Shown here piece by piece: positions 1,296-45,317 of a stretch of 64,000 nucleotides of DNA (position 1 is its first letter; each line of letters opens with the position of its first letter). Source of the DNA: Siphonodentalium dalli (lineage: Eukaryota; Mollusca; Scaphopoda; Gadilida; Siphonodentaliidae); the NCBI GenBank assembly GCA_032622095.1, contig CP136063.1, positions 217,449,982 through 217,513,981 of the forward strand, written 5' to 3'. The notes under the pieces were generated by a model that did not search any database, was not told where the DNA came from, and worked only from the letters and a program-made list of their open reading frames with translations. The position numbers and the translations under genes are program-made.

Positions 1296-1400
1296 GCTGA
1301 CATCAAGCCATAAATATATGCACAAACAAAAATCTTTTTTTGCTGGCATTCCGTTCAAAGCCACATGTAAAAAGTCTTTCTATGCTGAAGGGATGTATTG

Positions 1401-5467: not shown

Positions 5468-5530
5468 TCATTTCTCCGATGACTTTTTCCCAGGTAAATT
5501 GAGGCATACCATGACTTGTCAAATATTGTC

Positions 5531-29700: not shown

Positions 29701-31400
29701 ACTAATTCTTGAAACTTTCAGTAAGGAATGGACGAAACAAATATGATTCATCTAAGACCCTATCTCGATTAAATTTCTACCCACTGAAATTTTAAATTTT
29801 TAATCTATTTCTCATCTTTTAAAAGTTTTATCTGTCTTTCTCGGATCTCTGTCCTGACTTTAATTCCTTACTTTCTATTCTAATTTGATAATCTTGCACT
29901 ATCACACTATTTTAATGACATGTTCCTAGATCAGTGTCTTGGCTCATCTCATAAAAACAACTGGTTTTCTCCATACTCGTGTCCTAATTTACTTCCTTTT
30001 TCTTTTTTATGTACATGTACTTAACTTCCTGTCTGTTCTATATATTGACTTTCTTCCTCTTGACTCACTTTTCAATCATATAATGAAGGTCTATCTTATC
30101 GATTTCTTCTCCTCATCTGCTGGATTTGATTGTCTTCTTTCTCCTTCTCCGTCTGCTGAATCTGATTGTCTTTATGTGCATTCTTCATCTACTGAATTTG
30201 ATTTTCTTCTTTCTCATTCTCCGTCTATGGCATTTGATTGTCTTAGCACTCTCACTGAGAATTATGGACTTGTTATTCTCATTTTGTCCTGTACTAGTTC
30301 TCAGATCTCGTTTACTGTCTGAAATGTCCGACTGTTTGCATGTTATTTCTAAAAAAAAAAAAACCCAATGTTTTTCAGCATGGTTCACACCCTTCTTGAA
30401 ATGCTGATTCTAATCCTTATTGAGTCGTCGTATTTCTTCCTGGCATTCTCCTCCACGAGATATCATTTTAAACTTCCAATTTCAGCTTTTCTTGTCAACT
30501 ATTTTGGACGTCCTCTTATTATAAATGGGCTGTTGAAATATATTGCTCAATATTATTCTATATGGAGGTGATCACATATGTTATGATATCTCTCATAGTT
30601 CAAATTTCAGCATGAAGAATTTCTCAAGCATGTCTGTTTTCTTTTCAGTTAAATTAAGAACATGTCAAACGTGTGAAGATTACCTCAATGACATGTCCTC
30701 TAATTTTGAGATATTCCCCAATGTTACATTTTGCATTAACCCTTTACCCAACAGAAGGGCCCTGTGCCAATGCATTCTCTTATATATGCGAGTCGACCAT
30801 AGGTCGCCTCGCATATATAAGAGAATGCATTGGCTTAACACATTAAAAATTATAAAATTGTTAAAGAATGTAAGAAAAAATTGTAAAAAGTGTTAAAAAA
30901 AGATTTTTTTTAGGCCAATGCATTCTCTTATATATGCGAGGCGACCTATGGTCGACTCGCATATATAAGAGAATGCATTGGCACAGGGCATAACTGTAAC
31001 TATCACAATGTGGTCAAGGAGCCGGTTCCAATGATACCCATATTTGTATGGTTCTATTGAGACAGACCGAAGATATTTTAGGCTGTTGAAGCTTTATTTG
31101 GCCGGTTTGTTGGGTAAAGGGTTAATATAAAAAAAAAATTAAATAGAAAAAAACAAACTCTATGAAATTGTGGACAATTAGAATATATTAGAGAATGTTA
31201 TAAATATAGATGCTTGACACTTGCATTCAATTTCATTGCTAAATACTCATTGACGATTAGTTATTACTTAGGAAATGTTCAGATAATAAGTTCAACAAAC
31301 GACCATAGATCGTTTGTTGAACTTATTTTCTAAACATTTTCCTCCAATGAATAGGAATCGTTCTGTACTTGCAATATATGTCATCTGCTTATTTTTCTTG

Positions 31401-31434
<34 letters not shown>

Positions 31435-34400
31435 AGCTGAGTAATAGACCACTCCAATGTATACATTTATTATTATTGAGTGGGAAAATGCATTTAGCAA
31501 AGAAAGCGTTCAAATCAGATTTATTTGAACTGTGAAGGATAGTTGATTTAATACATGCTAATTTTATAAACTTGAATTTGTGTATAATTGCAGCCATGCC
31601 TGTTGGATATGGCCTTCAGAACCAAGCTCTAGTCAACTCCCGAATGGGTGCTGTTGGAGCCATGGGAATGCAGGGCATGCCAATCGCTACACAGATGGGC
31701 AGCAGCGTCATTCTAGTTTCAAATTTAGATGAGCAGGTACGATCATCATTCTCTAACTCTTATTAGAGCAAACCACTTAATATCATCCTTGAACATTTGA
31801 AGTTTCCGAAATAATAATTAGTTCATTGTGGTTAACCACCATTTCATACTACAGTAATGTCCTAAATAATTGACTCCTTAAGCACAGCAGAATTATGGGT
31901 AATTTTTCAGGATTTAGTCATAAATATGGCTTGCTGCCATACATCGGAAAGCTCTCACCGAGAGCTTTCCGATGAATGGCAGCAAGCCATATTTTCGACT
32001 AAATCCTGAAAAATTACCCATAATTCTGCTGTGCTTAAGGAATCAGTTATTTAGGGCATTACTGTATGTGCACCATGTGGCTCTCCATTAAATTGCACAC
32101 ATAAATCTCTGTTTTGCTATCCAAACATTAACCCTTTCATGACTGGAGCTTCCTGAAATTTTGCAAAAACCCTGTGCCAATGCATTCTGTTATATATGTA
32201 AGTCTCCCATAGCGAGCCTCATATATATAATAGACTACATTGGCCTAACAATATTTACCTTAGCCTTGTAATCCAGTGTATTTTCTAATATATGCAAGGT
32301 TCCCTATGGGAGACTCACATATATTAGAGAATGCATCTTTAATGCTGCACCAGCACAGCTCCCGTCATGAAAGGGTCAATAAATGTGTGCTTATTGGTGA
32401 GGTTATATGGTGCAGAAATGTTCATTAAAGGTCATTTAATTTTTGTTTTCTTAACTTGAGTTTTTCCGCATTGTGAAACTTGATGTTTGGATAATGCATA
32501 AATGTTTCAATTTTCAAATTGCAACGAACTTGTTTACTCGATGTAATGTCACGTTTTCATTGAATAATAACTGATTAGAGAATCTTAACATATGACATGT
32601 CAGTAGTTTGTTGAGTTTTATTATTTTATATACAAGAGATATTATTTGTCTTTAATTGTGATTGAGGTTCTCATGTGGGTACTGCTTGTTGAGTACTTGT
32701 GAAAAAATGGTGTATTCATGACTTCAGACCTCCATTTACAACTTTTTTGTTTCTTTTTTGTTTTTTGTTTTATTTTATCTCTTCTATTACTGGAGCTTCC
32801 TGAAATTTTGCGAAAACCCTGTGCCAATGCATTCTCTCATACATGCGAGTCTCCTATAGGGAGCCTCGCATATATAAGAGAATACATTGGCTTAACAATA
32901 TTTACTTTGACCTTGTAAGCCCGTGCTTTCTCTTATATATGCAAGGTTCCCTATGGGAGACTCGCATATATAAGAGAATGCACTGGCACAGGTTCTTTAA
33001 TGCTGCACCAGTACAGCTCATGTCATGAAAGTGATAATTCAACTTTACATTACTTTCCACTGGCGTAACAATACTTATCAATATATAAAATAAAGTAGAA
33101 CAAATTTCTTCAAACTGAATACATCCTGAAATTTTGATTTGTTTTAATTTGATAAAAAAAATTAAAACTCTCTTGCATTCGGCAATATTCACATGAGGAT
33201 CTACATTATTCTTAAATAAATAACTAGGATCGCCACCTTGTGCAATGTCTTAACCCTTCCATGACAGGAGCTCCGCTGCTGCAGCATTAAAGATCCTGTG
33301 CCAGTGCATTCTCTTATATATGCAAATCTCCCTTAGGGAGCCTCGCATATATAAGAGAATGCACTGGCTTACAGGTCAAGGTAAATATTGTTAGGCCAAT
33401 GTATTCTCTTATATATGCGAGGCTCCCTATGGGAGACTCGCATATATAAGAGTATGCTTTGGCACAGGATTTTCGCAAAATTTCAGGAAACTCCAGTCAT
33501 GGAAGGGTTAAATATATAATGTTAACAATGAAAGGCTGTAATGGATCTGTCAATACAATATAATACTAATGATGGGGTAGTGTTGTCATAACAATGGGGC
33601 ATGCTTTATTCCATGTTGTTGGTGGTGCTTTATGCTTCATGTCAGAGTGCCAGTCAGTTCATCAAACTTTTTAAATCGTCCCTTTGTTCTCCCAACTAGA
33701 ATCATTTTAACTCAAACCCACCAGTATTATTTGTTCAAAAATAATTTGCAAGGAATTGAACAATATAAGACCCCCCTCCTTAACTCAAAGCTACCAGTGT
33801 TTATTTGTTCAAAATAATTCACAAAGAATTGAACAATATAAGACCCAACCCGGGGGGGGTGGGGGGGGGGCTCCTTAACTCAAACCTATCAGTATTTATT
33901 TGTTCAAAATAATTCGCAAATAATTGAATAATATAAGACACCCCACCTTCATAATGCAAGGAAATTCTAAATTAATCATCAAGCGTGGTCACAGGACCAG
34001 ACAACGATATGACAAGAGCGAGAATTACTCTGTATAATTTGATGCTCCATGTAATGTCTTAGTTTTTGCTTTAAACTAAACCTGACCTCTTTGAAGAACC
34101 ATGCCTGGCACAATGAGATGGAAACTGTTGCTATAGTACTCTGTATGATTAACTTCTGAACTTTCTACACAGGGATTCTCTAATGCTTTGTATTTCAGCC
34201 GTCTCTGGTCATGTCCCTATCTATGCATATTGTGTTCCATCTGTTATGCAGTGGCACCCATAGCTTAGGAAACAGCAATGTAATAGCCTGTTTTACGACC
34301 CCCCCCCCCCCCCCCCCCCCCCCACAACTTTTTCCTCAATATTGTAAAAAAATATAAAAAATTTCGTATGATTCGTTTGTTGACGCTGATTAAAATAAAG

Positions 34401-37400
34401 TGAAGAAAATATTTGAAGCCAGTGTCTCTTTCTTGCTTTCACCTTCTTTTCCAATGTTTATACAGTTATATGGGAAGGAATACCTAAATTTATTTTTATA
34501 ATTTGAGTAAAAGTTATCGTATTAAAAAATCTTGTGAGATTCATGGAAAATTCAGATTTTTGTCAATTGATGTGGTGGTGATGCATAATTTTAGATTTTT
34601 TCTCCTCCTGCATCTACTTTTTTTCAACCCAAATGTTCGTAAACCAGGCTATTTTATTGTTGTGACCTCAATCTTTGTAGCACAGTGCTAGCTCTCTTTC
34701 TCGAACCATATGTATAAAAGTTATGGATGAAACGATTAACCGCAATACTCATAATCGCAAATAGTGATAAATGTGCATTGCGTTTCTTTCTGAAGAATCG
34801 TATCGCGATAACGTTTTAACAGCATTATCGCAATGAGCATGTTTCCAACATTTTTATATATTTAGTCTGAGTCACGATACGCATATTACATCATGACGAA
34901 AAAACTGGTATGTATCATATCCAGTCATTCTCTCACTAAACTACTACCTATTTATAGTAATAAACGGAAGATGTCGGAGTTTTGTGGCACTACTAATAAC
35001 AGAGTCTTCTCTCTATATAGTACTTGCTTTTGCATCATTGTATCATTAAATGGACATGGCTTGTTTGAACCTCTAAATTATGTATACGTAATTTGGGAGG
35101 TGGGATTACAAACCATTCTTAATATAGAACTTGTTGATATATGACTGAAAAAAAATATTTTCTTTTAATTTGAGCATGATGTCTTTGTGCAAAAACAAGG
35201 GCCCTTTTCAGTCTCCAAAGTGGTCATTTCTATGACATAAATAAGTCTTACCAAGGCATATATAAATATGGACCAAATTAAAGTATTTTGGACCTTTTTT
35301 TATCGCGGGAATGTGTCAAAAGCAAGAATTACTAGGTATGATTTGATGCTCCAAACCACCATGTACCTTTAATAGCGTAATGTTACCTGGAATCGTTTAA
35401 TAAGTCTTGATATGTTGGCTTGCCGATTATATTTTATTTTATTATAATATATGGTTCTTTGGAATATATCGCTTAGATAGGGACATGACTTCAGTGAAAA
35501 GTCAGCTGTCCACTGGCATGACTTAATGTTTCTGTGCATGACCATTCTTTCAACAAAAGTTGTCTTTATGGGAAAAAGTGTCACAGTGTGATAGACTGTA
35601 ATAAATCGACTGCCTTTTGAAATGCTGCTAATTTTCTCATAATTGTTACGCAAAATCCTTCCTTTACTAAATAGATTCTCCCTTTCTATTATGAAAGGAT
35701 ACACTGGAATAGTCTATTTCTCATCTGTCGTTTGTTGAACACTTCCCTTAGGGAACTACTCGTCAATGAGTATTTAGTAAAGAAAGGGTTAAACTAAGAG
35801 ATTTTATCGTAACAATATTGACCTTGATCTTGGGAGCCAGTGCATTCTCTTATATATGCGAGGCTTTCTATGGGAGAATGCACAGGCAAATGATCTTTGA
35901 TGCTGCATCAGCGTAGCTCCTGTCTTGAATGGGTTATGGAGTAACCTTCAATCCCTGATGAAATTACACTGTATAAAACATTTACGCTATCCCGCATTCT
36001 GCAAATGACAGGCACACTAAACTCAGCCTTGGGTACAAATGTGTTTATACTTTATAATTATATCAGGAATGAAGATTTTCCATAGATGCCATGTTATTTC
36101 TACTCAATGTTTAGTTCTGCCCTAATGTAGATTACCCATTTAAACACATACTGTCCTCACAATTGGCCACAGCAATAAGCAATAATGGCCATGGCAGCAA
36201 TTGGAATCTTAAAATACGACAGCACTACATGTGCCGTGGGATGTTTTTTTCTAATTTTTAGTGCTGCACTTTGACCAAATTACTATGGGAAATGAAGTTG
36301 CCTAATTATTTCAATCTAAATATTTGGTCCCAGGTCTCAAAATATGGTGCTGGACATTTGCAGAATGAGGTCCCCAGATGGTGAATTTAGTGACGCTACC
36401 CCGCATAGTGTGTTAGCATTACTAAATTCACCCTCTTGGGACCTCATTCTGCTATATCGTCATCTTCTCAGGAAAGTATCTTTATTATCAAATTAACAAG
36501 TTTTTTTTAGTTTCTTTAGACAGTATCTTTTTTTTTTTTTAGTTCAATTTCTCTATCCCCAAACTGGCAGAGAACACAATTAATAATCGACATTCCCAAT
36601 GGGTGCACATCATCATCTGGGAACTTAAATCTGTGTCTATGACCATTTAGAATGAGGTTCCCCCAGAGGATTTGGTGATGCTGGCCTGCTATGCGGGGTT
36701 GCGTCACTACATTCACCCTCTGGGGACCTCATTCTGCAAATGTCCAGCACCATATTTTGAAACCTGCCCAAATACATGTTACCGGTACAGCCTCAATAAG
36801 CAGCCGATTTACAACAGTTCTTATGATAAATCTGATCTAGTACTATAGATCCTTTTGTTGATTTAGCAATGTGTAAGCTGCTCACATTATTGGTTCCAGG
36901 GAGATCACTCTATTCATTTCGGAATCTTTTCAAGTCAATGTAGTTCTCCAAACTTCCAAACATTTGAGCAGCTTATACCAAATCTTTCTTATCTCTGCAA
37001 TGTTGGTACTAAGAATAAATAAAAAAGTCTCTTGTAGCAATTGTACAACCAGTTAATCATTTTTGACTGGTATTCACTTTAATGCACCAGTTTTAATCTT
37101 AATACATGAAAAATATAACCATTAATTTAAAAACAAAAACATCAATTATAGTAATGCCCTCAATAATCGACTCCTTAACCACATCAGAATTATTGGTAAT
37201 TTTTCAGAATTTAGTCGGAAATATGGCTTGTTGCCATTCATCGGAAAGCTCTCGCTGAGAGCCATATTTCCGACTAAATCCTGAAAAATTACCCATAATT
37301 CTGCTGTGGTTAAGGAGTCGATTATTTAAGGCATTACTTGCTGATTAGTACGAAATATTGCAGAGAAATATGTAAATATTGAGGATTCTATATTGACTCT

Positions 37401-40400
37401 TTTCAGATGACATGTGTCTCATATATTGATTTTTTCCCATTTTTTCTTTTAACCCATCCTACTCACGCTGACGTACCATGTGGACTCTTCTATATGTTCG
37501 CTCGGACACTGATTCGATTCTGTCTTCGCTCTGCTGTAATTCCTGTTGCTTTACTATAGAAGGTCACGCCCGACGCTCTCTTTACCCTTTTCGGTACGTT
37601 TGTAAGCACTCTTTTTATTTCATTTTATGAATCTGTAATTCGCTTGCAGTCAATTTCCTCATCAAAGATGCAAATTTGAAAAAAACATTCGGTGATAAAA
37701 GATCAGTGAAAAAAATATAAGATAAAAGAAACAAATGAAAAAAAAATCTTTTTCAATAATGGCATTCAAGAAGATTGAATTTTTTTTTCCTTAGGTTTTC
37801 ATTAATTCTGATGTGGTATTTTCAAACAATACTGCCTAAATCTCTAAAAAAATAAATAAAAAATATTAGAGTTGGAAATATTATTTCTTTTAAAAAATGA
37901 GCCCAAATCGACTGCAAGCTCTGATCTGGTTGAACTGTTTGCATAGTCTTCATAGATCTCATTTCGCACAAAGTATTTTGTCAACAAAATTAACGAGTGT
38001 GGCTAGTTGAACATCTGATGATAGATTAGATTACTCAACTCTCAACTTTTTCTTTGCTGCTTTCAAACGTGGCCTTGGATAATGTCTATGGCTCATTTAA
38101 CTGTTCTTCATTAAAGCAGCTCCGTGATAACTCTTTATCATTTTGACACAATTTAATTTTTTCCATATGACATGTATGCTCAAACAAATTATTTCGTTTA
38201 ATAGACTTTTAATCTGAGTATCGTATATCTTAGTGAAGTCGTATTTGCATGACTTATGCATGCTCATGGTATATTGTCACCAGTTTTGCAGCTAAGTAGA
38301 ATAAATATTGAAACATCTATAACTTTTTCAAACATCATTCTATAGTGTTTCTGAAGCATGGTTGATTTTAATGAATATAACGTGAACATGTAGCAGCCGA
38401 TAGTTGAATTCGGCACTAAAAATTACACAAGAAATTGTTCTGTCACAGACAAATTATCAGCCATGCATTCTTTTCTGGATCGAAATGGCTATATCAATGC
38501 CAATTTGGGGATATAGAGAAACTAAACTAAAAAAGAAATAGAATCTATTAATAGACCTCATTCTGCAAATGATAGGCACCTTATTCTCAGACCTGTGCCC
38601 ACTGACACAGTTACTGTAATGAATCCTAGTGTGAACTGGATCACCAATGCTCAATGTTGCTATTACCATTTGAGCATAGCAAGCCTTGAAATAATGTGCA
38701 TGGCGAGCTAGCATCAACAAATTCACCCTCTGGGAACCTCATTCTTCTGAGTCCTCAGCTGCTATGGGAGACCTAGGATCAGAATGAGGTCACCAGAATG
38801 TGAATTTAGTGATGCTAGCCTGCTGTGCAGGTTAGCGTCTCTAAATTCACCCTCTGTGGACCTCATTCTGCAAGGCTTGGACACAAGTGTGAATACTGGA
38901 GGCGCCTTGCTTGAGCTATACTACATGCCAAGGATGGAAGTTACAATGACATCAAAGACATGTGTATAATTATGCATTCAGCTATTTGAAATGTTGGCAC
39001 AGCAAATGAATGGATGACCATGTTTACAACTGTAGTTTATGCAATCATCTGCCAACAACTTATACAATTTTGAACTATTTAAATAATGGCCTAATTAATG
39101 GTCAGTCAGTTAAATAATTAATCGTTGTGGCCCTGATAACAGTGACAATACAGTGAGTTATCTAATTAAGGGTCGGCCATGCAGAATGAGGTTGAGGAAT
39201 TTCTGTAGACAAATGTATATGGTATGCCCATGCCAGAAACTATGATGTTCAGGAATTATGTTGTAAAAAACATTTGTCTGTCTAAAATTATAAAAGTAGC
39301 TGATAAATTTTAAAATATCAGTTTTCATTAACTCTTTCATGATGTGAGCTTTGATGGTGCAGCATTAAAGATCCTGTGCTAGTGCATTCTCTTAATATAG
39401 GCTTCCCAAGTCAAGGTAGATATTGTTAGGCCAATATATTCTCTTATATATGCGAGGCTCCCTATGGGAGACTCGGATATATAAGAGAATGCATTGGCAC
39501 AGGTTTTTTGCAAAAAATTCAGGAAGCTCCAGACATGGAAGTGTTAACCTTCCTGAATTTTTGCGAAAACCCTGTTCCAAAGCATTCTCTTACATATCGG
39601 AGGCTCCCTATATATGAGGGAATACAATGGCCTAACAATATTTACCTTGACCATGTAAGCAAGTGCATTCTCTTACATATGCTAGACTCCCTATAGGAGA
39701 CTTGCATATTTAAGAGAATGCACTGGCACAGGTTCTTTAATGCTGCACCAGCACAGCTCCCATCATGAAATGGTTAAATATTTGTATTATGCTCTCGTCC
39801 ATTTACTCTTTCAATTTAACTGCAAAACTGGTGATTTGTATTAAAAATGATTAATTTACTTGTATCATTATTGACATTACTAATAAAAAGATATTTAATT
39901 CCTATTAGGGGTGTATGGGGACGTACATCGGGTGAAAATTCTGTATCAGAAGAAGGATAATGCATTAATACAGATGGCCGAGGCACATCAGGCACAACTA
40001 GGTAAGAATAGATGTAAGATGAGTCTTATATGATGCTCACCTTTAGACTTTTATATTATTATATGCATAGTATGGGAGAAGTAGCATTCTGCGAACATTC
40101 GAGATTTTATTCTATGCTGATATTGGCGACCCGATTCGAGATCGACACCTTGTCAGTCTACTAATTCACACATTTTCAATTTGGCATGATGTGGTGCCAT
40201 TGTCTCAGGGAGAATCCTGGACCTTTCAAGTTGGGAGAAGTCACTTATCGCTGTTTTATTATTACTGAGAAATGGACTTAATAATCAGGGAGAAGTAACA
40301 ATGGGTGATATTCAATTTACACTCAAACATCACCCTTCTATGATCCAATAAGTATTATGAATAACGAGATCTCCCAAACATCACCCTTCTATGATCCAAT

Positions 40401-43400
40401 AAGTATTATGAATAACAAGATCTCCCAAACATCGCCCTTCTATGATCCAATAAGTATTATGAATAACGAGATCTCCCAAACATCACCCTTCTATGATCCA
40501 ATAAGTATTATGAATAACAAGATCTCCCAAACATCGCCCTTCTATGATCCAATAAGTATTATGAATAACGAGATCTCCCAAACATCACCCTTCTATGATC
40601 CAATAAGTATTATGAATAACGAGATCTCCCAAACATCACCCTTCTATGATCCAATAAGTATTATGAATAACGAGATCTCCCAAACATCACCCTTCTATGA
40701 TCCAATAAGTATTATGAATAACGAGATCTCCCAAACATCACCCTTCTATGATCCAATAAGTATTATGAATAACGAGATCTCCCAAACATCACCCTTCTAT
40801 GATCCAATAAGTATTATGAATAACAAGATCTCCCAGTCATCACCCTTCTATGATCCAATAAGTATTATGAATAACAAGATCTCCCAGTCATCACCCTTCT
40901 ATGATCCAATAAGTATTATGAACAACAAGATCTCCCAAAACTGGGTCACATGCCTCTGATTTTATAAGGAGTTTCAACATTTCAAGTATTATTAATCGAT
41001 TGTGATTATATCAGTAATAATCAAATGACAACCAGGTATTATCCTGTATCCCTTGAGTTGACTCCTTTTGAAAATATTATTTCTGTGTTCATAATATTTG
41101 ATTAATTTATTTACTTTTGTATTGCAGCAATTGCTCACTTAGATAAAGTTAGGGTTTGGGGAAAGAACATACGAGTTGCTCAGTCAAAACATTCACTCGT
41201 CCAGATGCCCAAGGATGGTCAGCCGGTATGGTTTTATATAATATGAAAATTAAATGTTATTTTAATTTAATTATTCTTTGTGGATAAAGCAGTGGAATAT
41301 GCATGTGATGGACGCTTGCATGAGCTACATGCTACATATATTCTCATTAACCCTTTACCCAACAAACCGGCCAAAACCGGCCAGATAAAGCTTCAACAGC
41401 CTAAAATATCTTCGGTCTGTCTCAATAGAACCATACAAATATGGATATCATTGGAACTGTCTCCTTGACCACATTGTGATAGTTACAGTTATGCCCTGTG
41501 CCAATGCATTCTCTTATATATGCGAGTCGACCATAGGTCGTCTCGCATATATAAGAGAATGCATTGGCCTAAAAAAAATCTTTTTTTTAACACTTTTTAC
41601 CATTTTTTCTTACATTCTTTAACAATTTTATAATATTTAATGTGTTAAGCCAATGCATTCTCATATATATGCGAGGCGACCTATGGTCGACTCGCATATA
41701 TAAGAGAATGCATTGGCACAGGGCCCTTCTGTTGGGTAAAGGGTTAAAGATTAACATCCTACCTGTCAGAGCTTCCAGTTTAATTTCAGTTAGATATTTC
41801 CACATGCTCATAACTATTATAAAAAGTATTTCAATTCTTATTTTTTTTAACAAATCTTAAATTTTAAATGAATCAAAGCTGAATGTGTATTCAATTTTAA
41901 AATATGCACGACATTGCATCACCTGGTTTCAACGAACAAATGTCCTGTGTTTAGGTTTCACAGTATGAATGCCTACAAGAGTGGAAATAAAATAACATGA
42001 TTGCTCTTTCTATTACAGGACGCTGGGCTTACGAAAGATTTCACGAACTCACCTCATCACCGATTTAAACGACCAGGATCTAAAAACTGTCAGAATATAT
42101 TTCCTCCCTCACCAGTTCTTCATCTCTCTAACATTCCGTAAGTTATTATTCTAGACGCTCCTTTTCTGAGAAATGCAATTTTTTCCAGATTTTCAATAGC
42201 GTGCTTTAGTTTTAATTAGGTCCGTGTAATACAGATTGAGTTCCATCTATTTTCATTATCTAGAACTATTCATTATATACTAAATGATTTAAATTTGTTA
42301 ACTCGCTGAGAGTTAACAACTATATCCTCTGTGCAGACAGAAATCTTCACCTTCACAATTTTGTTGCATTTCCATTTCACTTTCATGCATTCTTATTCAA
42401 GTTTCCGCTAAAAAAAAAAAAATTGTTGTTTCGGTCACAAATCTGCTGCCCAAATAAGTTCATTTTTTATTATCATTCAACAATACTTGAATATCTGTGT
42501 CGACAAGAGTAACACTATTACATCAGATTCTTAGCTAATGACAACACCGCTATTGCATTTAATAAAAGATATGTCTTTTTTGCAGACAAACAACCACTGA
42601 AGATATCCTAAGAGATCTGTTTTGTGATTTTGGTACAGTCGTCGGATTCAAATTCTTTCAGTAAGTAATTTCTTCTTGAAATTTTGCGAAAACCCTGTGC
42701 CAATGCATTATCTTACTAGTATATATTTGAGTCTCCCATAGGGAGCCTTGCATATAAAAGAGAATACATTGTCCTAACAATATTGACCTTGTAAGCCAGT
42801 GCATTCTCTTATTTATGCGAGGCTTCATATGGTTGACTCGCATATATAAGAGAATGCATTGACACAGGGTCTTTAACGCTGCACCAGCGCAGCTCCTGCC
42901 ATGAAAGAGTTAAACTCCTTCACAGGCATAAGACAGCCAGTCAAAACAAACAGGGTATGCAAATGTCCTGCTCCGGTACATAACCTCGTTTATAGACTGG
43001 TTTGTCTTGGAAAGCAAGATTTCCTCAGGGCCTTGAATATCTAGAATAGCCTTGAATTTGACTAATAACATGCACAATGAGTTCCCCAGAGGGTGAATTT
43101 AGTGACGCTACCCCACACAGCTGGCCAGCGTCCCAAAATTCACCCTCTGGGGACCTCATTGCATATGCCTCAAATGCTATGGGAGACCTAGGATCAGATT
43201 GAAGTTTCCGAGTCGAAGTTGGTGATGTTCACCCATTAGTCACCTCGATTATGCATTTTATCTTCTGCAAATTTAGGGGACATACAAACTGAACAGAAGG
43301 GAAAACGTAACTAAAAGAATGTTGATTTGAGATTATAGATACTTCCCAGAAGATGAGGCCTAAGCAGAATGAAGTCCCCAGAGGCTGAATTTAGTGATGC

Positions 43401-45317
43401 TAGCCTGCTGTATGGGTACCATCACTAAATTCGTCCTCTGGGGACCTCATTCTGCAAATAACAGACACACTATTTCAAGGCTTGCCATTCATTGCCTGGA
43501 ATTTGCTTTAACGTGAACATTTATGGTTTGTCTTGAATTTCAGTGATACTTTCACCTTTATCGGAACTTGTGAATTCACTCTGATCTGTATTTTACCTTA
43601 TTTAATGGAGAGTCTTGAAAAATGATCTTTAAAATTTGTGACAATTTAGAAATTGGAAATGATTTATCCTTCATTTTTTTTAGGAAAGACAAAAAGATGG
43701 CTCTAATACAGCTAGGCAGCGATGAGGAAGCAATCCACGCCCTAGTCGTAAGCATCTTATCATTCTTACTTCTCCAAATATTGGTTCTGAAATCATGCAA
43801 AGAGAGCTGATGGAAAAGATTATTTTCATTAATTAGAAGATCCTGCATAGAATAAAAATTTTACAATATGTCCTGAACTGACTAGAATATCAACCAACCA
43901 AAGTAATTACTTCATGGCCTTGGCGTTAGGCCACTGGAAATTAATTCTCTGTTTTTCAGACACTGCCGCCCCCATAAAATAGGCGCCGCTGGGTGCTTTT
44001 TATTACACACCACAAAATAAAAGTGTTAATCATCCTGCCCAATCCTGCCCGCAAAAAAAAAATGCATTAGAGTGCATGTTCACCTGCACATAACATATTT
44101 CTATTGGATACACATATACAAGGTTGCACTATCAGCAAGTTGAACTTTTCCAAGTGACAGTGGTAGCGTTGACAAAGAATCTGGTATCAATCTGTTATTT
44201 GATTCTGCCCATAATTATTTCACTGTTCTAAAAGTTGATGTGATGATGGTGCAGTAAAATCTGACTAATACTACACTGAGTACATTAAAGTTGGTTATTC
44301 AATTATTCAATTCGGGGATAAACAAATAAAAACCTGCCTGCCAGAAATTTTTTGTCATAAAATAGGCCAATAAAAACCTGCCTGCCAGTAAATATTTGCC
44401 ATAAAAAATAAATATAGAAACCTGCCTGCCTGCCTGATTTGAAGAAAAAAAAAGTGTTGATATATATCAACAGAGAATTAATATCCTGTGGCCTAATATG
44501 CTGTCATCTATAAATGATAGCTCACTTTAACTCAGGGAATTATACAAAAGTTGCTCATTACTGGATGAAGGAGGGAGCTCCCCGCCCCCCAAAGAATTCT
44601 AGAAATTAATGGATGTATGGAATTAAAAGGATTCTATAATTTTCCAAGCAATGTATAAAATCTATCCTCCAATGCCTTTTAATCACTGTGTCGTCAACAG
44701 AATTTTATCTTAATTTCTAATTGTGAATATATTGGAGAATGAGTTTTGAACTCTTGAAAAATCTGGATAAACTGCAAATAAATTTGTTCTATGAAGTTCT
44801 CTTTTCAGTGAAGATGGAGTTGCATGAGAACTTTATTTTCATCTTTTTGTTTTTAAATGTAATAACTGAAATATTTTTCATAATAACTGATGGAATCAGA
44901 TAATATAATACATTATAACTGTAATATGCTTAATACGGCCAGGTATTTATTGTGACATTAACCCTTCTATGAGGTTCCTGAAATTTTGCTAAAACGCTAT
45001 GCCAATGCATTCTCTTATATATGCATAGGGAGCCTCGCATATATAAGAGAATACATTGGCCTAACAATATTTACCTTCACCTTGTAAACCAGTGCATTCT
45101 CTTATATATGCGAGGCTCCCTATGGGAGACATGCATATATAAGAGAATGCACTGGCACACGATCAGCGCAGCTCCCGTCATCAAATGGTTAAAACATTAT
45201 TTCAGGTGTTAAAGGGTCAAGAATTCATTTTCTTTGTTATTTCAGGGTCTACACAATTCAGAACTCAGTGAACAACAACATCTCAAGGTCTCATTTTCTA
45301 AGTCAACTATACAGTAA
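8579..45317 (+). CDS. PTBP: Polypyrimidine tract-binding protein (PTBP/hnRNP I), 3' part of gene, 16 exons
   Basis: PTB is a nuclear and shuttling RNA-binding protein that binds UCUU/CU-rich RNA through four RRM domains and represses or activates exons. Joining 8579-8725, 13165-13296, 15800-15851, 16180-16238, 16836-17004, 21184-21264, 27311-27334, 29258-29278, 31594-31736, 37560-37593, 39909-40001, 41128-41225, 42019-42137, 42586-42660, 43684-43747 and 45246-45317 gives 1383 nt, or 460 residues plus a TAA stop. All introns are GT-AG and all phases agree. RRM1 is half present (residues 1-49); RRM2 covers about 71-170, the RRM2-RRM3 linker about 171-265, RRM3 about 266-350 and RRM4 about 385-460. 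Vertebrate PTBP1 is about 530-557 residues, so roughly the first 100 residues are missing, including the start codon. Every intron of any size carries MITEs. The family call is certain; which vertebrate paralogue is closest cannot be told, and a single pre-duplication gene is likely. Confidence 0.96.
8805..8935 (+). repeat. Low-copy dispersed repeat, copy 1
   Basis: tccatctgtctgtgtgttca and tcggttatcggatc, followed by tccattgatgtgctcg, resemble 58383-58515 in the same order. No inverted ends seen. Origin unknown. Confidence 0.45.
9119..9274. mobile_element. TA-D palindrome, both outer ends lost
   Basis: It begins within the arm (cgaccccttaaccacagcag) and ends at ctgctgtggttaagggga. The loop side is shortened asymmetrically (ctctcgggaacaagcc). 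The terminal CAGTAATGC and TA are gone. Confidence 0.85.
9275..10112. other. No recognised feature
   Basis: Intron sequence; nothing recognised apart from AT-rich runs. Confidence 0.5.
10113..10127 (+). repeat. LINE target-site duplication, left copy
   Basis: aagtttatcaatctc is repeated right after the poly(A) at 12221-12233 (the leading aa merges with the A-tail). It marks the insertion point of the LINE. Confidence 0.92.
10128..11825 (+). pseudogene. LINE ORF2 C-terminal fragment, split by a MITE
   Basis: The frame runs 10128-10641 and resumes at 11032-11825. There are no internal stops other than those brought in by the MITE, which suggests a fairly young insertion. The fragment lacks endonuclease and RT catalytic motifs and so cannot be autonomous. 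Tx1/L1 clade is inferred from the post-RT residues; a jockey or CR1 origin is less likely because of the W-x-G-KPDKI motif and zf-RVT layout. Confidence 0.85.
10642..11035 (+). mobile_element. TTAA-B MITE nested in the LINE (copy 1)
   Basis: The right end GGTTTGTTGGGTAAAGGG-TTAA (11032-11035) is intact. At the left end about five bases of TTAACCCTTTACCC are missing (ttcttaccc). It has both hairpins with the loop GTCGACCATAGGTCG. The LINE codons on either side fit together if one TTAA is kept, so the empty site can be inferred exactly. Confidence 0.93.
12221..12233 (+). repeat. LINE target-site duplication, right copy
   Basis: gtttatcaatctc follows the poly(A) directly and is identical to 10115-10127. 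Confidence 0.92.
12234..12801. other. Intron, no recognised feature
   Basis: AT-rich with several A/T runs; nothing recognised. Confidence 0.5.
12802..13054 (+). mobile_element. TTAA-A MITE (full hairpins)
   Basis: TTAA at 12802-12805 with a degenerate left end (acccttgtggagctt); the right end is cccgaaaggg-TTAA (13051-13054). Both hairpins are near-intact with CCCATAGGGAG loops. Confidence 0.85.
13165..13296 (+). CDS. PTBP: PTBP exon: RRM1-RRM2 linker and RRM2 start
   Basis: The exon is 44 codons, phase 0-0, with acceptor ccatttcag and donor gtatta. The Ala/Gln-rich linker ([16 protein letters not shown]) is followed by RRM2 RNP2 ([19 protein letters not shown]). The linker is shorter than in vertebrate PTBP1. 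A TTAA-A element ends 110 bp upstream of the acceptor. Confidence 0.94.
13453..13669. mobile_element. TA-D palindromic MITE (copy 4)
   Basis: TA at 13453-13454, CAGTAATGCTC...GAGCATTACTG, TA at 13668-13669. Arms are nearly complementary over more than 100 bp. Confidence 0.92.
13674..13968. mobile_element. hAT-E MITE, 4 bp from a TA-D copy
   Basis: CAAGCCTGCAAATAGTGTG to ctatttgtaggcttg. It holds one complete hairpin, part of the middle segment and a shortened second hairpin. It begins 4 bp after the TA-D element ends. Confidence 0.85.
14064..14317. mobile_element. hAT-E MITE, short form, with 8-bp target duplication
   Basis: CAAGCCTTGTAATAGTG to CACTATTTCAAGGCTTG, with two hairpins back to back and no middle segment. 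It is flanked by cccatagg at 14056-14063 and 14318-14325, an exact 8-bp duplication as expected for hAT elements. Confidence 0.93.
14326..14908. other. Intron, no recognised feature
   Basis: Unique sequence; nothing recognised. Confidence 0.5.
14909..15307 (-). mobile_element. TTAA-B MITE, reverse orientation (copy 2)
   Basis: TTAA-CCCTTTACCCAACAAAACGG on the left, TTCTGTTGGGCAAAGGG-TTAA on the right. Both hairpins have loops that pair (GTCGACCATAGGTCG and its complement). Confidence 0.94.
15491..15725 (-). mobile_element. TTAA-C MITE, reverse orientation (copy 4)
   Basis: It starts taaccttttcttcactaaat and carries tactcattgacgagtaattc and accattccaatgtatac. The far end is diverged (acacatttaattaa). 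Confidence 0.78.
15800..15851 (+). CDS. PTBP: PTBP exon: RRM2 helix 1 to beta-2
   Basis: The exon is 52 nt, phase 0 to 1, encoding [17 protein letters not shown] plus the first base of a Gly codon. The acceptor is aatttcag and the donor gtaagt. The same peptide lies at this position in vertebrate PTB RRM2. Confidence 0.95.
16038..16143. mobile_element. TA-D, right half only
   Basis: It runs from gatctttccgatgaatgg to GGCATTACTG-TA. The left arm is absent, so the break lies at the hairpin tip. Confidence 0.86.
16180..16238 (+). CDS. PTBP: PTBP exon: RRM2 RNP1 and helix 2
   Basis: The exon is 59 nt, phase 1 to 0, encoding [20 protein letters not shown] with acceptor actttccag. This is RNP1 and the second helix of RRM2. 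The preceding exon (52 nt) and this one together give 37 whole codons, which fixes both boundaries. Confidence 0.94.
16384..16563 (+). mobile_element. TTAA-A MITE, right end truncated
   Basis: TTAA-CCCTTCCATGACTGGAGC on the left. Both hairpins are shortened, and the copy stops at aagagaatgcactt without the terminal segment. Confidence 0.82.
16836..17004 (+). CDS. PTBP: PTBP exon: RRM2 C-terminal part and start of long linker
   Basis: The exon is 169 nt, phase 0 to 1, with acceptor tttttttcag. It encodes [20 protein letters not shown] and then the extended region [16 protein letters not shown], the hallmark fifth strand and tail of PTB RRM2. It ends in a Ser/Leu-rich stretch ([12 protein letters not shown]) that begins the RRM2-RRM3 linker. 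A TTAA-A element begins 79 bp after the donor. Confidence 0.96.
17083..17343 (+). mobile_element. TTAA-A MITE
   Basis: TTAA-CCCTTCCATGACTGGAGC on the left; the right end is decayed (catcatgaaatggttata). Both hairpins are present with scattered changes. It lies 79 bp after a PTBP exon. Confidence 0.87.
17477..17933 (-). mobile_element. TTAA-B MITE with enlarged middle (copy 3)
   Basis: TTAA-GCCCTTACCCAACAAAACG on the left, TTTTATTGGGTAAAGGG-TTAA on the right. The segment between hairpins holds three tandem versions of a ttctttaacaattttata motif, against one in other copies. The right TTAA is shared with the adjoining TTAA-C copy. Confidence 0.92.
17930..18127 (-). mobile_element. TTAA-C MITE, reverse orientation (copy 5), abutting TTAA-B
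   Basis: TTAA, then gccctttatttacaaaatac; landmarks tcatttgttgaacttta, ataatagaccattccaatg and the end tttggtataaaaagggtaaa. It shares TTAA 17930-17933 with copy B3. Confidence 0.8.
18131..18912. other. Intron, no recognised feature
   Basis: AT-rich intron between the 17004 and 21184 exons; nothing recognised. Confidence 0.5.
18913..19166 (+). mobile_element. TTAA-A MITE
   Basis: TTAA-CCCTCAATGATGGGAGC on the left and CTCCTGTCATGAAAGGG-TTAA on the right, with both hairpins present. Confidence 0.87.
19459..19857 (+). mobile_element. TTAA-B MITE (copy 4)
   Basis: TTAA-CCCTTTACCCAACAGAACGG on the left, GGTTTGTTGGGTAAAGGG-TTAA on the right. It is nearly identical to copies at 30736, 49633 and 51909. 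Confidence 0.95.
19858..20200. other. Intron, no recognised feature
   Basis: Unique sequence; nothing recognised. Confidence 0.45.
20210..20712. mobile_element. IR-F: element with ~52-bp inverted ends and 9-bp direct repeat
   Basis: The left end (cagtctctttgaaaagccaa, about 20210-20262) is complementary, with a few mismatches, to the right end (about 20661-20712, ending tttcaaagagactg). Flanks are ctatttgca (20201-20209) and ctatttgta (20713-20721), an 8/9 match. The interior is about 400 bp without a coding frame. It is the only copy in this window. A 9-bp duplication would suit Mutator-like or Merlin-type elements; the superfamily is not settled. Confidence 0.75.
20722..21183. other. Intron, no recognised feature
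   Basis: Unique sequence up to the acceptor at 21183. Confidence 0.45.
21184..21264 (+). CDS. PTBP: PTBP exon: linker segment, 81 nt, phase 1-1
   Basis: It encodes [19 protein letters not shown] and then TTFGTAG after a split Gly codon. The donor is gtacgc. The acceptor (ttataaag) lacks a good pyrimidine tract. A better-looking acceptor at 21203 (attgtccag) would break the frame into the next exons, so 21184 is preferred. Linker sequence is poorly conserved in PTB proteins, so support comes from phase and Pro/Gly composition, not homology. Confidence 0.7.
21265..21629. other. Intron, no recognised feature
   Basis: Unique sequence; nothing recognised. Confidence 0.45.
21630..21895 (+). mobile_element. 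TTAA-A MITE
   Basis: The left end has lost one T (gTATAA-CCCTTTCATGACAGG); the right end is CTCCTGTCATGAACCTTGGG-TTAA, with a small insertion. Both hairpins are present with several substitutions. Confidence 0.85.
22119..22310 (+). repeat. Tandem repeat, 3 x 64 bp, identical units
   Basis: Units start at 22119, 22183 and 22247 with aagtccagtataacaaac and end aaaaagttagttg. I see no difference between the three, so the expansion is recent. Confidence 0.95.
22522..22738. mobile_element. TA-D palindromic MITE (copy 6)
   Basis: TA-CAGTAATGCTCTAATTAATC...GAGCATTACTG-TA. Both arms carry the variant ccccttaacc/ggttaagggg. Confidence 0.93.
22877..23268. mobile_element. hAT-E MITE with 8-bp duplication (7/8)
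   Basis: CAAGCCTTGAAATAGTGAG to ctatttcaataggcttg. Flanks are aatgcatc (22869-22876) and aatacatc (23269-23276). The second hairpin is largely deleted. Confidence 0.9.
23311..23380 (+). repeat. Short tandem duplication, ~39 bp x 2
   Basis: gtccccaccactggattgga appears at 23313 and 23352, each followed by gata and actttA-type sequence. Confidence 0.85.
23557..23626 (+). tRNA. tRNA-like sequence (degenerate; Ser/Leu-type A box)
   Basis: tggctgagtgattaaggc at 23565 fits the A box and D arm of class II tRNAs. ggtacggtctc at 23607 is a poor B box. A weak ttgtc/gacaa stem could be the anticodon arm, with a 9-nt loop. The acceptor stem does not pair. It is most likely a tRNA pseudogene or SINE head, not a working tRNA. 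Confidence 0.3.
23776..24000. mobile_element. TA-D palindromic MITE (copy 7)
   Basis: TA-CAGTAATGCCC...GAGCATTAATG-TA. The tip has an extra inverted piece (gaaagcgagagctttccgtt), making the loop differ from other copies. Confidence 0.9.
24090..24506. mobile_element. hAT-E MITE with 8-bp duplication (7/8)
   Basis: The left end is catgtcttgaaatagtgtg and the right end ctatcttgaggtttg. Flanks are gccacaac (24082-24089) and gcaacaac (24507-24514). The left hairpin is partly deleted; the middle segment and right hairpin are present. Confidence 0.87.
24515..25012. other. Intron, no recognised feature
   Basis: AT-rich; nothing recognised. Confidence 0.45.
25013..25395 (+). mobile_element. TTAA-B MITE (copy 5)
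   Basis: TTAA-CCCTTTACCCAACAGAAGGG on the left, GTTTTGTTGGGTAAAGGG-TTAA on the right. The inter-hairpin segment is about 20 bp shorter than usual (the aaaagattttttttagg part is missing). Confidence 0.94.
25589..26067 (+). mobile_element. A/B hybrid TTAA MITE with expanded centre
   Basis: The termini are TTAA-A type (CCCTTTCATGACGGGAGC; catcatgaaatgg-TTAA). The hairpin loops are B-like (gtcgacctttggtccc). The centre (25733-25945) is a degenerate array of the B-type motif attgttaaagaatgtaagaa, repeated at least five times where B has one. Confidence 0.88.
26068..26753. other. Intron, no recognised feature
   Basis: AT-rich; nothing recognised. Confidence 0.45.
26754..27026 (-). mobile_element. 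TTAA-C MITE, reverse orientation (copy 6)
   Basis: TTAA, then tcctttattcaccaaatac; a palindromic centre (ttgaacaaactaccatagg / ttcgttggttgag) and gagtgggagatttcattta near the end. Confidence 0.82.
27311..27334 (+). CDS. PTBP: PTBP microexon, 24 nt, phase 1-1
   Basis: Acceptor acatttgtag and donor gtgagt enclose 24 nt that read VPGYGSMA plus a split Gly codon. It keeps the frame whether included or skipped. The PGYG motif repeats that of the preceding exon (PMPGYG) and resembles PVGYG in the 31594 exon. Evidence is phase, splice sites and motif; transcript data are absent. Confidence 0.72.
27335..28194. other. Intron, no recognised feature
   Basis: Contains a local duplication gagcat-agtatttgataaat/ gagcat-agatttgataaat at about 27435-27490. 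Nothing else recognised. Confidence 0.45.
28195..28246 (+). repeat. Dispersed repeat shared with 35044-35097
   Basis: attaaatgtacatggctcgt and the following tatgtatatgtaatttg match 35044-35097 with a few changes. Here the match stops where a TA-D half element begins. Confidence 0.6.
28247..28354. mobile_element. TA-D, right half only
   Basis: It runs from gagagctttccgatgaatgg to GGGCATTACCG-TA. The left arm is missing. Confidence 0.86.
28643..29106 (+). mobile_element. TTAA-H element carrying the A/B hairpin
   Basis: TTAA-CTCTTTCAGTACCAGGTCCG on the left and GGCCCTGGCACTGAAAGGG-TTAA (29103-29106) on the right. One complete hairpin with the B-type loop (GTCGACCATAGGTCG) sits at about 28690-28763. 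The right third has no similarity to A or B. Confidence 0.85.
29258..29278 (+). CDS. PTBP: PTBP microexon candidate, 21 nt, phase 1-1
   Basis: Acceptor gatcttgtag and donor gtgagt enclose 21 nt reading VPAYSPI plus a split Gly codon. It follows the same VP-x-Y pattern as the 24-nt microexon and has the same phase. At 21 nt a chance match is possible, but splice sites, phase and motif all agree. Confidence 0.6.
   Translation, partial: YLLIVP
29279..30735 (+). other. Pyrimidine-rich intron segment
   Basis: From about 29420 to 30340 the + strand is T/C-rich with many TCTT and CTTTCT motifs. 30107-30243 is a degenerate tandem of about 51-54 bp (tttgattgtcttctttctcc and relatives). Open frames here are by-products of low complexity. 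Confidence 0.6.
30736..31125 (+). mobile_element. TTAA-B MITE (copy 6)
   Basis: TTAA-CCCTTTACCCAACAGAAGGG to GGTTTGTTGGGTAAAGGG-TTAA, full length and close to the family consensus. Confidence 0.95.
31236..31512 (-). mobile_element. TTAA-C MITE, reverse orientation (copy 7), with C33 tract
   Basis: A perfect central palindrome (aagttcaacaaacgacc / gatcgtttgttgaactt). An uninterrupted run of 33 C at 31402-31434 replaces the usual acacccctcta segment. Terminal TTAA sites are eroded. Confidence 0.85.
31594..31736 (+). CDS. PTBP: PTBP exon: linker end and RRM3 RNP2
   Basis: The exon is 143 nt, phase 1 to 0, with acceptor taattgcag and donor gtacga. It encodes a Met/Gly-rich linker ([19 protein letters not shown]) and then RNP2 of RRM3 ([12 protein letters not shown]). 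In vertebrates the linker here is longer and Ala-rich. A TTAA-C element with a C33 tract ends about 80 bp upstream. Confidence 0.95.
31850..32066. mobile_element. TA-D palindromic MITE (copy 9)
   Basis: TA-CAGTAATGTCC...GGGCATTACTG-TA, with variant ttaagcacag/ctgtgcttaa and ttgctgcc/ggcagcaa present in both arms. Confidence 0.93.
32128..32379 (+). mobile_element. TTAA-A MITE
   Basis: TTAA-CCCTTTCATGACTGGAGC on the left; GCTCCCGTCATGAAAGGG-TCAA on the right. The hairpins are diverged and the second lacks the cactggcacagg part. Confidence 0.87.
32380..32782. other. Intron, no recognised feature
   Basis: AT-rich with T-runs; nothing recognised. Confidence 0.45.
32783..33037 (+). mobile_element. 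TTAA-A MITE, left terminus lost
   Basis: It begins at tactggagcttcctgaaat without TTAA-CCCTTCC. The right end is tgtcatgaaagtgataa. Both hairpins are present. Confidence 0.84.
33250..33511 (-). mobile_element. TTAA-A MITE, reverse orientation, full length
   Basis: TTAA-CCCTTCCATGACAGGAGC on the left, CTCCAGTCATGGAAGGG-TTAA on the right. Both hairpins are well preserved. Confidence 0.92.
33709..33948 (+). repeat. Degenerate tandem repeat, ~3 units, with G-rich insert
   Basis: Units at 33709, 33782 and 33878 share aactcaaa, tatttgttcaaaataatt and gaacaatataagac. Unit 2 is extended by a G-rich run at 33852-33870. Confidence 0.8.
34012..34053 (+). repeat. Dispersed repeat shared with 35317-35366
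   Basis: agcgagaattactctgtata followed by atttgatgctcca matches agcaagaattactaggtatg at 35321 and what follows. Confidence 0.55.
35044..35097 (+). repeat. Dispersed repeat shared with 28195-28246
   Basis: attaaatggacatggcttgt and tatgtatacgtaatttgg are the counterparts of the 28195 copy. Confidence 0.6.
35653..35792 (+). mobile_element. TTAA-C MITE, centre deleted (copy 8)
   Basis: The left end is eroded (tccttcctttactaaatag), the middle 100 bp is gone, and the right end TATTTAGTAAAGAAAGGG-TTAA (35789-35792) is intact. Confidence 0.82.
35810..35937 (+). mobile_element. TTAA-A, right part only
   Basis: taacaatattgaccttgatc to cctgtcttgaatgggttat, with the second hairpin shortened at its tip. 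Confidence 0.75.
35990..36043. mobile_element. hAT-E right-end fragment
   Basis: cattctgcaaatgacaggca followed by cactaaactcagccttg is the terminal 45 bp of hAT-E; the rest is absent. Confidence 0.6.
36331..36766. mobile_element. hAT-E2 MITE (variant ends)
   Basis: The ends are CAGGTCTCAAAATATGGTGC and its complement; two hairpins built on the AGAATGAGGTCCCCAGA core. The middle segment is diverged from E. No clear 8-bp duplication at this copy. Confidence 0.86.
36767..37148. other. Intron, no recognised feature
   Basis: Unique sequence; nothing recognised. Confidence 0.45.
37149..37338. mobile_element. TA-D palindrome, right arm partly deleted
   Basis: TA-GTAATGCCCTCAATAATC on the left; the tip of the right arm (tttccgatgaatggcaacaa) is missing after gagag. 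It ends ggcattact. Confidence 0.88.
37380..37559 (+). promoter_or_regulatory. Pyrimidine motifs before the 34-nt exon (candidate PTB sites)
   Basis: The last 180 bp of the intron contain gactcttttcag, gattttttcccattttttct, ggactcttctat, tgtcttcgctctgctg and ttcctgttgctttac. PTB binds UCUU and CUCUCU in RNA; vertebrate exon 11 repression uses flanking pyrimidine tracts. The binding role here is inference. Confidence 0.45.
37560..37593 (+). CDS. PTBP: PTBP 34-nt exon in RRM3 (equivalent of vertebrate PTBP1 exon 11)
   Basis: Acceptor tttactatag and donor gtacgt enclose exactly 34 nt, phase 0 to 1, reading [11 protein letters not shown] plus the first base of Gly. This is helix 1 of RRM3 (vertebrate VTPQSLFILFG). 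The vertebrate exon at this place is also 34 nt and is skipped under PTB autoregulation (established for PTBP1). Skipping here joins phase 0 to a phase-1 exon and creates a TGA at 39933-39935. The upstream intron end holds several pyrimidine motifs (CTCTTCT, TGTCTTCG), and the intron nearby is free of MITEs for about 220 bp. Confidence 0.93.
37594..38497. other. Intron after the 34-nt exon
   Basis: No repeat family copies. The first 50 bp include actctttttatttcattt, another pyrimidine run. Confidence 0.5.
38498..38598. mobile_element. hAT-E2 fragment
   Basis: caatttggggatatagagaa and actaaactaaaaaagaaata match the middle of the copy at 58975; tctgcaaatgataggcac and ttctcagacctg are an E/E2 right end. 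Confidence 0.65.
38680..38879. mobile_element. hAT-E MITE, shortened
   Basis: CAAGCCTTGAAATAATGTG to ctgcaaggcttg. The left hairpin lost its outer arm and most of the middle is missing. Confidence 0.82.
38880..39327. other. Intron, no recognised feature
   Basis: Unique sequence; nothing recognised. Confidence 0.45.
39328..39547 (-). mobile_element. TTAA-A MITE, reverse orientation, first of a head-to-tail-opposed pair
   Basis: TTAA-CTCTTTCATGATGTGAGC on the left; CTCCAGACATGGAAGTG-TTAA on the right. The first hairpin is mostly deleted. Confidence 0.87.
39544..39777 (+). mobile_element. TTAA-A MITE, second of the pair, sharing one TTAA
   Basis: It starts at TTAA 39544-39547 directly with ccttcctgaatttttgcg, lacking the outer TIR, and ends CCATCATGAAATGG-TTAA. 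Orientation is opposite to its neighbour. Confidence 0.85.
39909..40001 (+). CDS. PTBP: PTBP exon: RRM3 core with RNP1
   Basis: The exon is 93 nt, phase 1-1, with acceptor ttcctattag and donor gtaaga. It encodes [15 protein letters not shown] and then RNP1 [15 protein letters not shown]. The match to vertebrate PTB RRM3 is close. A 51-bp minisatellite fills part of the next intron. Confidence 0.96.
40002..40323. other. Intron, no recognised feature
   Basis: Unique sequence before the minisatellite. Confidence 0.45.
40324..40937 (+). repeat. Minisatellite, ~12 x 51 bp, intronic
   Basis: The unit includes tatgatccaataagtattat, gaataacgagatctccc and aaacatcaccc. The period is 51, a multiple of three with no stop in one frame, so it reads as a 200-codon open frame of a 17-residue repeat. 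It lies between two PTBP exons with good splice sites and so is non-coding. Units alternate gag/aag at the start of the array and become uniform later. Confidence 0.97.
41128..41225 (+). CDS. PTBP: PTBP exon: RRM3 C-terminal end
   Basis: The exon is 98 nt, phase 1 to 0, with acceptor tattgcag and donor gtatgg. It encodes [20 protein letters not shown] followed by [12 protein letters not shown], matching the end of PTB RRM3 (vertebrate GKPIRITLSKH...). A TTAA-B element begins 121 bp downstream. Confidence 0.95.
41347..41747 (-). mobile_element. TTAA-B MITE, reverse orientation (copy 7)
   Basis: TTAA-CCCTTTACCCAACAAACCGG to CCTTCTGTTGGGTAAAGGG-TTAA, full length, 121 bp after a PTBP exon. Confidence 0.95.
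41748..42018. other. Intron, no recognised feature
   Basis: AT-rich sequence up to the acceptor tattacag. Confidence 0.45.
42019..42137 (+). CDS. PTBP: PTBP exon: RRM3-RRM4 linker and RRM4 RNP2
   Basis: The exon is 119 nt, phase 0 to 2, with acceptor tattacag and donor gtaagt. It encodes [20 protein letters not shown], then [20 protein letters not shown]. This short linker and RNP2 pack RRM3 against RRM4 in vertebrate PTB and are highly conserved here. Confidence 0.97.
42138..42585. other. Intron, MITE-free
   Basis: No element or repeat recognised; AT-rich with a poly(A) run near 42411. Confidence 0.5.
42586..42660 (+). CDS. PTBP: PTBP exon: RRM4 helix 1 and beta-2
   Basis: The exon is 75 nt, phase 2-2, with acceptor tttttgcag and donor gtaagt. 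It encodes [20 protein letters not shown] and FKFFQ. A truncated TTAA-A element starts about 11 bp past the exon end, so the downstream donor context is MITE-derived. Confidence 0.95.
42672..42913 (+). mobile_element. TTAA-A MITE, left terminus lost, abutting a splice donor
   Basis: Homology starts at cttcttgaaattttgcg, about 11 bp after the PTBP exon end at 42660. The right end is CCTGCCATGAAAGAG-TTAA (42910-42913). An extra tagtatat piece lies in hairpin 1. Confidence 0.87.
43046..43484. mobile_element. hAT-E MITE (long form)
   Basis: The left end is eroded (atagccttgaatttg), with a complete left hairpin, middle segment and right hairpin, and ends CACTATTTCAAGGCTTG. No target duplication can be read. 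Confidence 0.86.
43684..43747 (+). CDS. PTBP: PTBP exon: RRM4 RNP1 and helix 2
   Basis: The exon is 64 nt, phase 2 to 0, with acceptor ttttttag and donor gtaagc. It encodes [20 protein letters not shown] plus Val, the RNP1 strand and second helix of RRM4. Confidence 0.96.
43748..44957. other. Intron with small repeats
   Basis: A degenerate triplication (aaaaacctgcctgccag) lies at 44326-44436. Nothing else recognised in this 1.2-kb intron part. Confidence 0.5.
44326..44436 (+). repeat. Degenerate tandem repeat, ~46 bp x 2.4
   Basis: cctgcctgccag recurs at about 44332, 44377 and 44420, separated by attt-gtcataaaataggcc-like sequence. Confidence 0.75.
44958..45192 (+). mobile_element. TTAA-A MITE just before the last PTBP exon
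   Basis: TTAA-CCCTTCTATGAGGTTCC on the left; AGCTCCCGTCATCAAATGG-TTAA on the right. It ends 53 bp before the exon, so it occupies the branch-point region's upstream side. Confidence 0.87.
45246..45317 (+). CDS. PTBP: PTBP terminal coding exon with stop codon
   Basis: The acceptor ttatttcag is followed by 23 codons and TAA at 45315-45317. The peptide [20 protein letters not shown] followed by TIQ is the PTB C-terminus; vertebrate proteins end in SFSKSTI, so one extra Gln is present. A TTAA-A element ends 53 bp upstream of the exon. Confidence 0.96.
   Translation, partial: GLHNSELSEQQHLKVSFSKSTIQ

Follow-up and report, generated by a model that had tools for sequence, protein, structure and literature searches.

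A stretch of 64,000 nucleotides from the scaphopod mollusc Siphonodentalium dalli (contig CP136063.1, positions 217,449,982 to 217,513,981 of the forward strand; the whole stretch is referred to below as the window, and positions are counted within it) contains most of a PTB-type gene, including an exon of 34 nucleotides (nt) in its third RRM. The original prediction was that this exon is a switch of the kind known from vertebrates, in which PTB represses inclusion of a 34-nt exon and so limits its own level through nonsense-mediated decay (NMD). The question raised by the locus is whether the DNA bears this out, or whether the exon is one that the splicing machinery simply always includes.

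By its sequence matches, the gene encodes a PTB-family protein. A tblastn search with an approximate human PTBP1 query located forward-strand exons from the second half of RRM1 to RRM4 within 8579-45317, those for the second half of RRM1 and for RRM2 lying at 8579-8725, 13165-13296, 15800-15851, 16180-16238 and 16836-17004 (the end at 17004 was read from frame and donor). The best solved-structure matches of the joined RRM3-RRM4 product are RRM3-4 of PTBP1 and PTBP2 (E 1e-81 to 4e-77), PTBP1 chain 2adc among the structures matched, and the match to an hnRNP L structure is far poorer (E about 2e-18). Its score for NCBIfam TIGR01649 (hnRNP-L/PTB/hephaestus) is 288.4 bits, slightly over the cut-off of 287.4, with a query comprising half the protein. 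No exons encoding the N terminus or the first half of RRM1 turned up in quick scans of the window, including the region 1-8578; they may be situated before its first base or may have been overlooked. A search of the window for RNA families returned 0 matches at the gathering threshold.

PTB is probably single-copy in this genome, in keeping with a non-vertebrate, since a 231-aa RRM3-RRM4 query run against the full assembly (9 contigs totalling 2.2 Gb) gave seven confident matches (E 5e-21 to 4e-4), all of which fall at this locus; a search of this type can miss matches, and the copy number is accordingly provisional. Elsewhere in the genome the same query gave three weak matches only (E 0.25 to 6.3), and at two of these loci inspection by eye turned up no convincing hnRNP-L-like exon.

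Three forward-strand exons, all with GT-AG borders, determine what skipping would do. The first (31594-31736, 143 nt) encodes the linker and the start of RRM3 and ends in phase 0 (DEQ/gtacga). The second is the 34-nt cassette exon of RRM3 (37560-37593; tatag/AAG to TCG/gtacgt), whose coding content is 11 residues plus the first base of the following codon, and the third (39909-40001; attag/GGG to TAG/gtaaga) is 93 nt long. Inclusion of the 34-nt exon keeps the RRM3 frame open. The skip product, in which 31736 is joined to 39909, runs for eight codons past the junction and then meets a TGA at 39933-39935, where the V-K codons GTG AAA are read out of frame. The length, position and borders of the exon are as originally predicted, and our translation of the skipped form agrees with the prediction on the stop. 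A loose pattern scan of 31737-39908 (forward strand, three frames) found no second copy of the 34-nt exon; a match at 37388 contains a stop and was discarded as spurious.

As a rule, NMD acts on messages in which a premature stop lies more than 50-55 nt ahead of a junction. Because the distance from the end of the TGA to the junction at 40001 is 66 nt, the geometry of the skipped message fits this rule. The prediction that more junctions lie beyond was also correct by measurement: there are five in total after the stop, the later ones at 164, 283, 358 and 422 nt, contributed by exons at 41128-41225, 42019-42137, 42586-42660, 43684-43747 and 45246-45317, the last of which contains the normal stop of the gene (45315-45317). 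Families of the NMD machinery are represented in the genome, with three matches to UPF1_Zn_bind and five to Mago_nashi.

By themselves, the length of the exon and the stop are weak evidence of regulation. Six internal exons of this half of the gene were tested; the length of four is not a multiple of three, and skipping leads to an early stop in three of those four, so that a frameshift on skipping is unremarkable alone. Moreover, exon 10 of human ROD1 (PTBP3), the equivalent exon, is without sign of alternative splicing or other regulation in the material available from PMC1940037, and is apparently always included. It is conceivable, then, that the mollusc exon is constitutive, its length and stop being relics of where introns were placed long ago and of the V-K codons, from which both would follow, and the AG-free stretch ahead of it being a product of chance. 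We regard this as unlikely. The orthologous exon is regulated in both C. elegans and mammals (PMC4876481, PMC1940037), and the sequence preceding the mollusc exon is unusual in ways that exon length and reading frame do not address.

Immediately upstream of the exon is an AG exclusion zone of 151 nt (37407-37557, forward strand; 68% pyrimidine), with no AG until the one at 37405-37406. The PTB gene has 12 further acceptors that were mapped, and their zones are 15-68 nt. That the longest zone of 13 acceptors falls at exactly this exon counts against constitutive use, as does the shortness of the second zone, successive zones moving upstream measuring 151, 21 and 16 nt. Verified cases of distant branch points have a long first zone and a short second one (PMC1431707), and these lengths match the zone pattern of that class, a first zone of at least 100-150 nt followed by a short second one.

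Zones of this length are rare at other exons. Of 120 exon starts taken as controls from other parts of the genome, with acceptors assigned by a scoring matrix rather than from transcripts, two have a zone of at least 100 nt and one a zone of at least 150 nt, the latter lying in what looks by eye like tandem-repeat sequence; if any AG near the start of the match is admitted, the upper bounds become 4 of 120 and 1 of 120. These controls were hand-picked, roughly in order of E-value, as 60 of 96 AAA_6, 40 of 89 DHC_N2 and 20 of 97 RRM matches; they were drawn from part of the eligible rows, only from matches starting inside the domain, and without the copies at C3:24.9 Mb and at C3:57.8 Mb, which nearly duplicate a copy on C6 (C3 and C6 are contigs of the assembly). 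Dynein exons account for 100 of the 120, and several of these come from related paralogues, so the controls are not fully independent. In human, 165 of 67,334 exons have a zone of at least 150 nt (PMC1431707).

Pyrimidine richness alone is insufficient to account for the lack of AG, because only a fraction of 0.00995 of 20,000 shuffles of the 151 bases were free of it. The composition is itself distinctive: the 150 nt before the exon are 67% pyrimidine and 25% C, each value being matched by 1 of 132 controls. The zone could nonetheless be luck, since AG-free runs of at least 130 nt recur across the 64-kb window. There are 12 over both strands, 7 on the forward strand (the zone of this exon included) and 5 on the reverse, and one of the 12 (39757-39888) lies just upstream of the next exon. 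This recurrence favors the chance element in the constitutive reading; the depletion beyond composition and the coincidence with this particular exon weigh on the other side.

The acceptor of the 34-nt exon is weak. At 4.05 it ranks last among the gene's 13 acceptors by score, the next being 4.5 and 4.8, and acceptors scoring as low or lower make up 7 of 132 when the set is unfiltered and scored leave-one-out, all of these scores deriving from a small home-made matrix. A count in which the acceptor was weaker than every control (0 of 126) was dropped, as that set had been pre-filtered on score. The donor is strong (9.2, in a range of 2.9-9.7 over 12 donors), as might be expected of an exon that is always included, whereas an acceptor that is the weakest of 13 is not what constitutive use would lead one to expect.

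The AG that bounds the zone at 37405-37406 is itself a fair 3′ splice site; it scores 8.2, a value not exceeded by 49 of the 132 acceptors from the gene and the controls, and thus outscores the actual acceptor at 37560 (4.05). Its use would create an exon of 187 nt, open for 50 codons and then closed by the TAG at 37557-37559, which is also the proximal splice site's own TAG. One might imagine that the two acceptors compete, the distal one being used instead of or besides skipping to give an NMD-type exon of 187 nt, and that the AG-free stretch is an extension kept clear of other acceptors. We think this quite improbable. Few stops, and no TAG, would be expected anyway in a pyrimidine-rich stretch devoid of AG; the difference in score, a point in its favor, comes from the small matrix just mentioned; and we saw no precedent for such an arrangement in those portions of the PTB papers that we consulted.

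In the distant-branch-point class (Gooding et al. 2006), a high-scoring branch point is expected near the upstream end of the zone, with none at the usual distance from the exon. Heptamer scoring, with our own weights modeled on the human consensus, nominates CGCTGAC (A at -89), TACTCAC (A at -95) and CACTGAT (A at -48), all on the forward strand. The top-scoring candidate, CGCTGAC, reaches 8.8 bits, a value as high being found in a fraction of 0.0255 of 2000 shuffles, and it sits in the middle of the zone, not at its upstream end. CACTGAT, the nearer candidate, beats the best candidate between -15 and -50 of 107 of 132 controls; a usable branch point at so ordinary a distance is again what a constitutive exon would have. 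A scan of 37300-37700 for bacterial promoters and terminators was uninformative for an animal.

The original prediction also pointed to several UCUU and CUCUUCU motifs in the intron just before the exon. They are real, and their enrichment is just moderate: the 150 nt before the exon hold 9 PTB-type motifs against a control mean of 3.6, a count reached in 84 of 1277 forward-strand windows and at 7 of the 132 intron ends used as controls. The 200-nt segment 37380-37579 ranks fifth on the forward strand of the window for such motifs. Within the 34-nt exon a synonymous-site test found no significant excess of PTB motifs (P 0.10) and a mildly high pyrimidine count (P 0.016). So moderate an enrichment, together with the location of the top forward-strand motif cluster of the window elsewhere (30051-30250), would suit an exon that is regulated and feeds NMD mainly by way of some factor other than PTB, with no self-limiting loop. 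To this possibility we assign only a slight chance, given that in mammals and in C. elegans it is PTB itself that represses the orthologous exon (PMC1940037, PMC4876481).

We consider it quite probable that the 34-nt exon is the orthologue of exon 11 of vertebrate PTBP1, exon 10 of PTBP2 and exon 11 of C. elegans ptb-1, and that it serves as a negative-feedback cassette. When abundant, PTB would bind the pyrimidine-rich exclusion zone and its flanks and block the weak acceptor at 37560, with the result that the 143-nt exon would be joined to the 93-nt exon; the skipped message, stopping at 39933-39935, would be destroyed by NMD, and PTB would thereby be limited. When PTB is low, the 34-nt exon would be included, perhaps by way of a distant branch point at about -89 to -95, and a full RRM3 would be made. 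Regulation is supported by three features beyond those named in the original prediction, namely the 151-nt zone, its richness in pyrimidines and the weak acceptor. Because the zone is long and depleted in AG, the acceptor is weak and the arrangement is shared by exon 11 of human PTB, PTB-repressed skipping coupled to NMD is likely in this animal.

The mammalian exons provide the closest comparison. This layout, with a long AG exclusion zone ahead of the exon, is also that of exon 11 in human PTBP1 and exon 10 in PTBP2 (PMC1431707). The zone is 151 nt in the mollusc versus 381 nt in human PTB and 438 nt in nPTB (PTBP2), and it is 590 nt in Fugu PTB; the branch point of human PTB exon 11 has been verified at -351 (PMC1431707). 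Whereas mammals have three paralogues, there is apparently one PTB gene here. Skipping, NMD and control by PTB have been demonstrated in mammals (PMC1940037, PMC1431707), while for the mollusc we infer them from sequence. A different human exon, exon 2 of ROD1, is likewise 34 nt long, with an AG exclusion zone of 168 nt and a response to both PTB and nPTB, but unlike the exon described here it lies near the start codon, and its inclusion ratio was unchanged by knock-down of UPF1 (PMC1940037).

The original prediction further held that the switch would date from before the vertebrate paralogues. That is a reasonable inference; it is not new. That the switch predates vertebrates is already known from C. 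elegans, where a 2016 study described a 34-nt exon 11 in ptb-1 whose skipped form is NMD-sensitive and is undetected in the ptb-1 mutant, its authors remarking that the role, position and size of the exon are conserved between mammals and C. elegans (PMC4876481, in the sections dealing with this exon). In the nematode as in the mollusc, both non-vertebrates, RRM3 includes a 34-nt cassette exon whose skipping leads to a frameshift and a premature stop; the regulation was demonstrated in C. elegans with smg-2 and ptb-1 mutants, and in the mollusc it is deduced from the DNA (PMC4876481). In those sections of the study, neither an AG exclusion zone nor a distant branch point is mentioned for the nematode exon. 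As to other accounts, the main text of a paper on Drosophila hephaestus, as far as it was available, lacks the stem "autoregulat" (PMC4778870), and the relevant part of PMC12992808 discusses PTBP1 for a different, mammal-specific exon skip. In what we could consult of the open-licence PMC literature, we came across no invertebrate in which this exon is reported to have an exclusion zone or a distant branch point.

What may be new here is a layout resembling that of a distant branch point in an animal with an apparently single PTB gene. S. dalli probably adds to the non-vertebrate examples of PTB self-limitation, here in a genome whose introns are large. The findings also suggest that the distant-branch-point arrangement may belong to the ancestral plan of the switch rather than having been added in vertebrates. 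A bolder reading, to which we would give somewhat less than an even chance, is that the whole vertebrate layout (34-nt exon, distant branch point and exclusion zone) was already in place in a single pre-vertebrate PTB gene. The circuit would then possibly be among the oldest homologous splicing-feedback circuits, and a second PTB-binding block at 30051-30250 may join in it.

That block is the strongest cluster of PTB-type motifs on the forward strand of the window, with 30 motifs in 200 nt against a mean of 4.8. It sits in the 14.6-kb intron preceding the exon at 31594, within a region (29760-30650) that is AG-poor (zones at 29935-30086 and 30089-30244) and up to 74% pyrimidine, and it includes a degenerate 36-nt tandem repeat at 30116-30244. 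When 329 bases of the cluster region were used as a query, they matched only themselves in the genome. A cassette exon following the cluster was considered and rejected: the acceptor at 30649 is good, but the frame enters a hairpin element, and the donors 221 and 234 nt farther on look weak.

The original prediction had stated that the intron end before the 34-nt exon is free of a MITE; this holds for about the last 220 nt, but a hairpin MITE copy lies farther up the same intron, upstream of the exclusion zone, at 37150-37340 (outer limits by eye), with terminal motifs at 37162-37190 on the reverse strand and 37298-37326 on the forward strand. The terminal motif, ATTCTGCTGTGGTTAAGGAGTCGATTATT, occurs at 16 places in the window with at most three mismatches, where 0 are expected (for example 3973-4001, 37162-37326 and 50074-50259), and four opposite-strand pairs of copies, about 140-160 nt apart, form hairpins. 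A second hairpin family, with arms like AATGCATTCTCTTATATATGCGAG, is found in introns at 39420-39730, 30740-30990, 17130-17300 and 7940-8010 (limits by eye).

Among the dynein heavy chain exons used as a source of controls, matches with equal or near-equal scores were found in three places (C3:24960879-24989876, C3:57827067-57829861 and C6:62039052-62054607), which suggests a recent duplication or an effect of the assembly.
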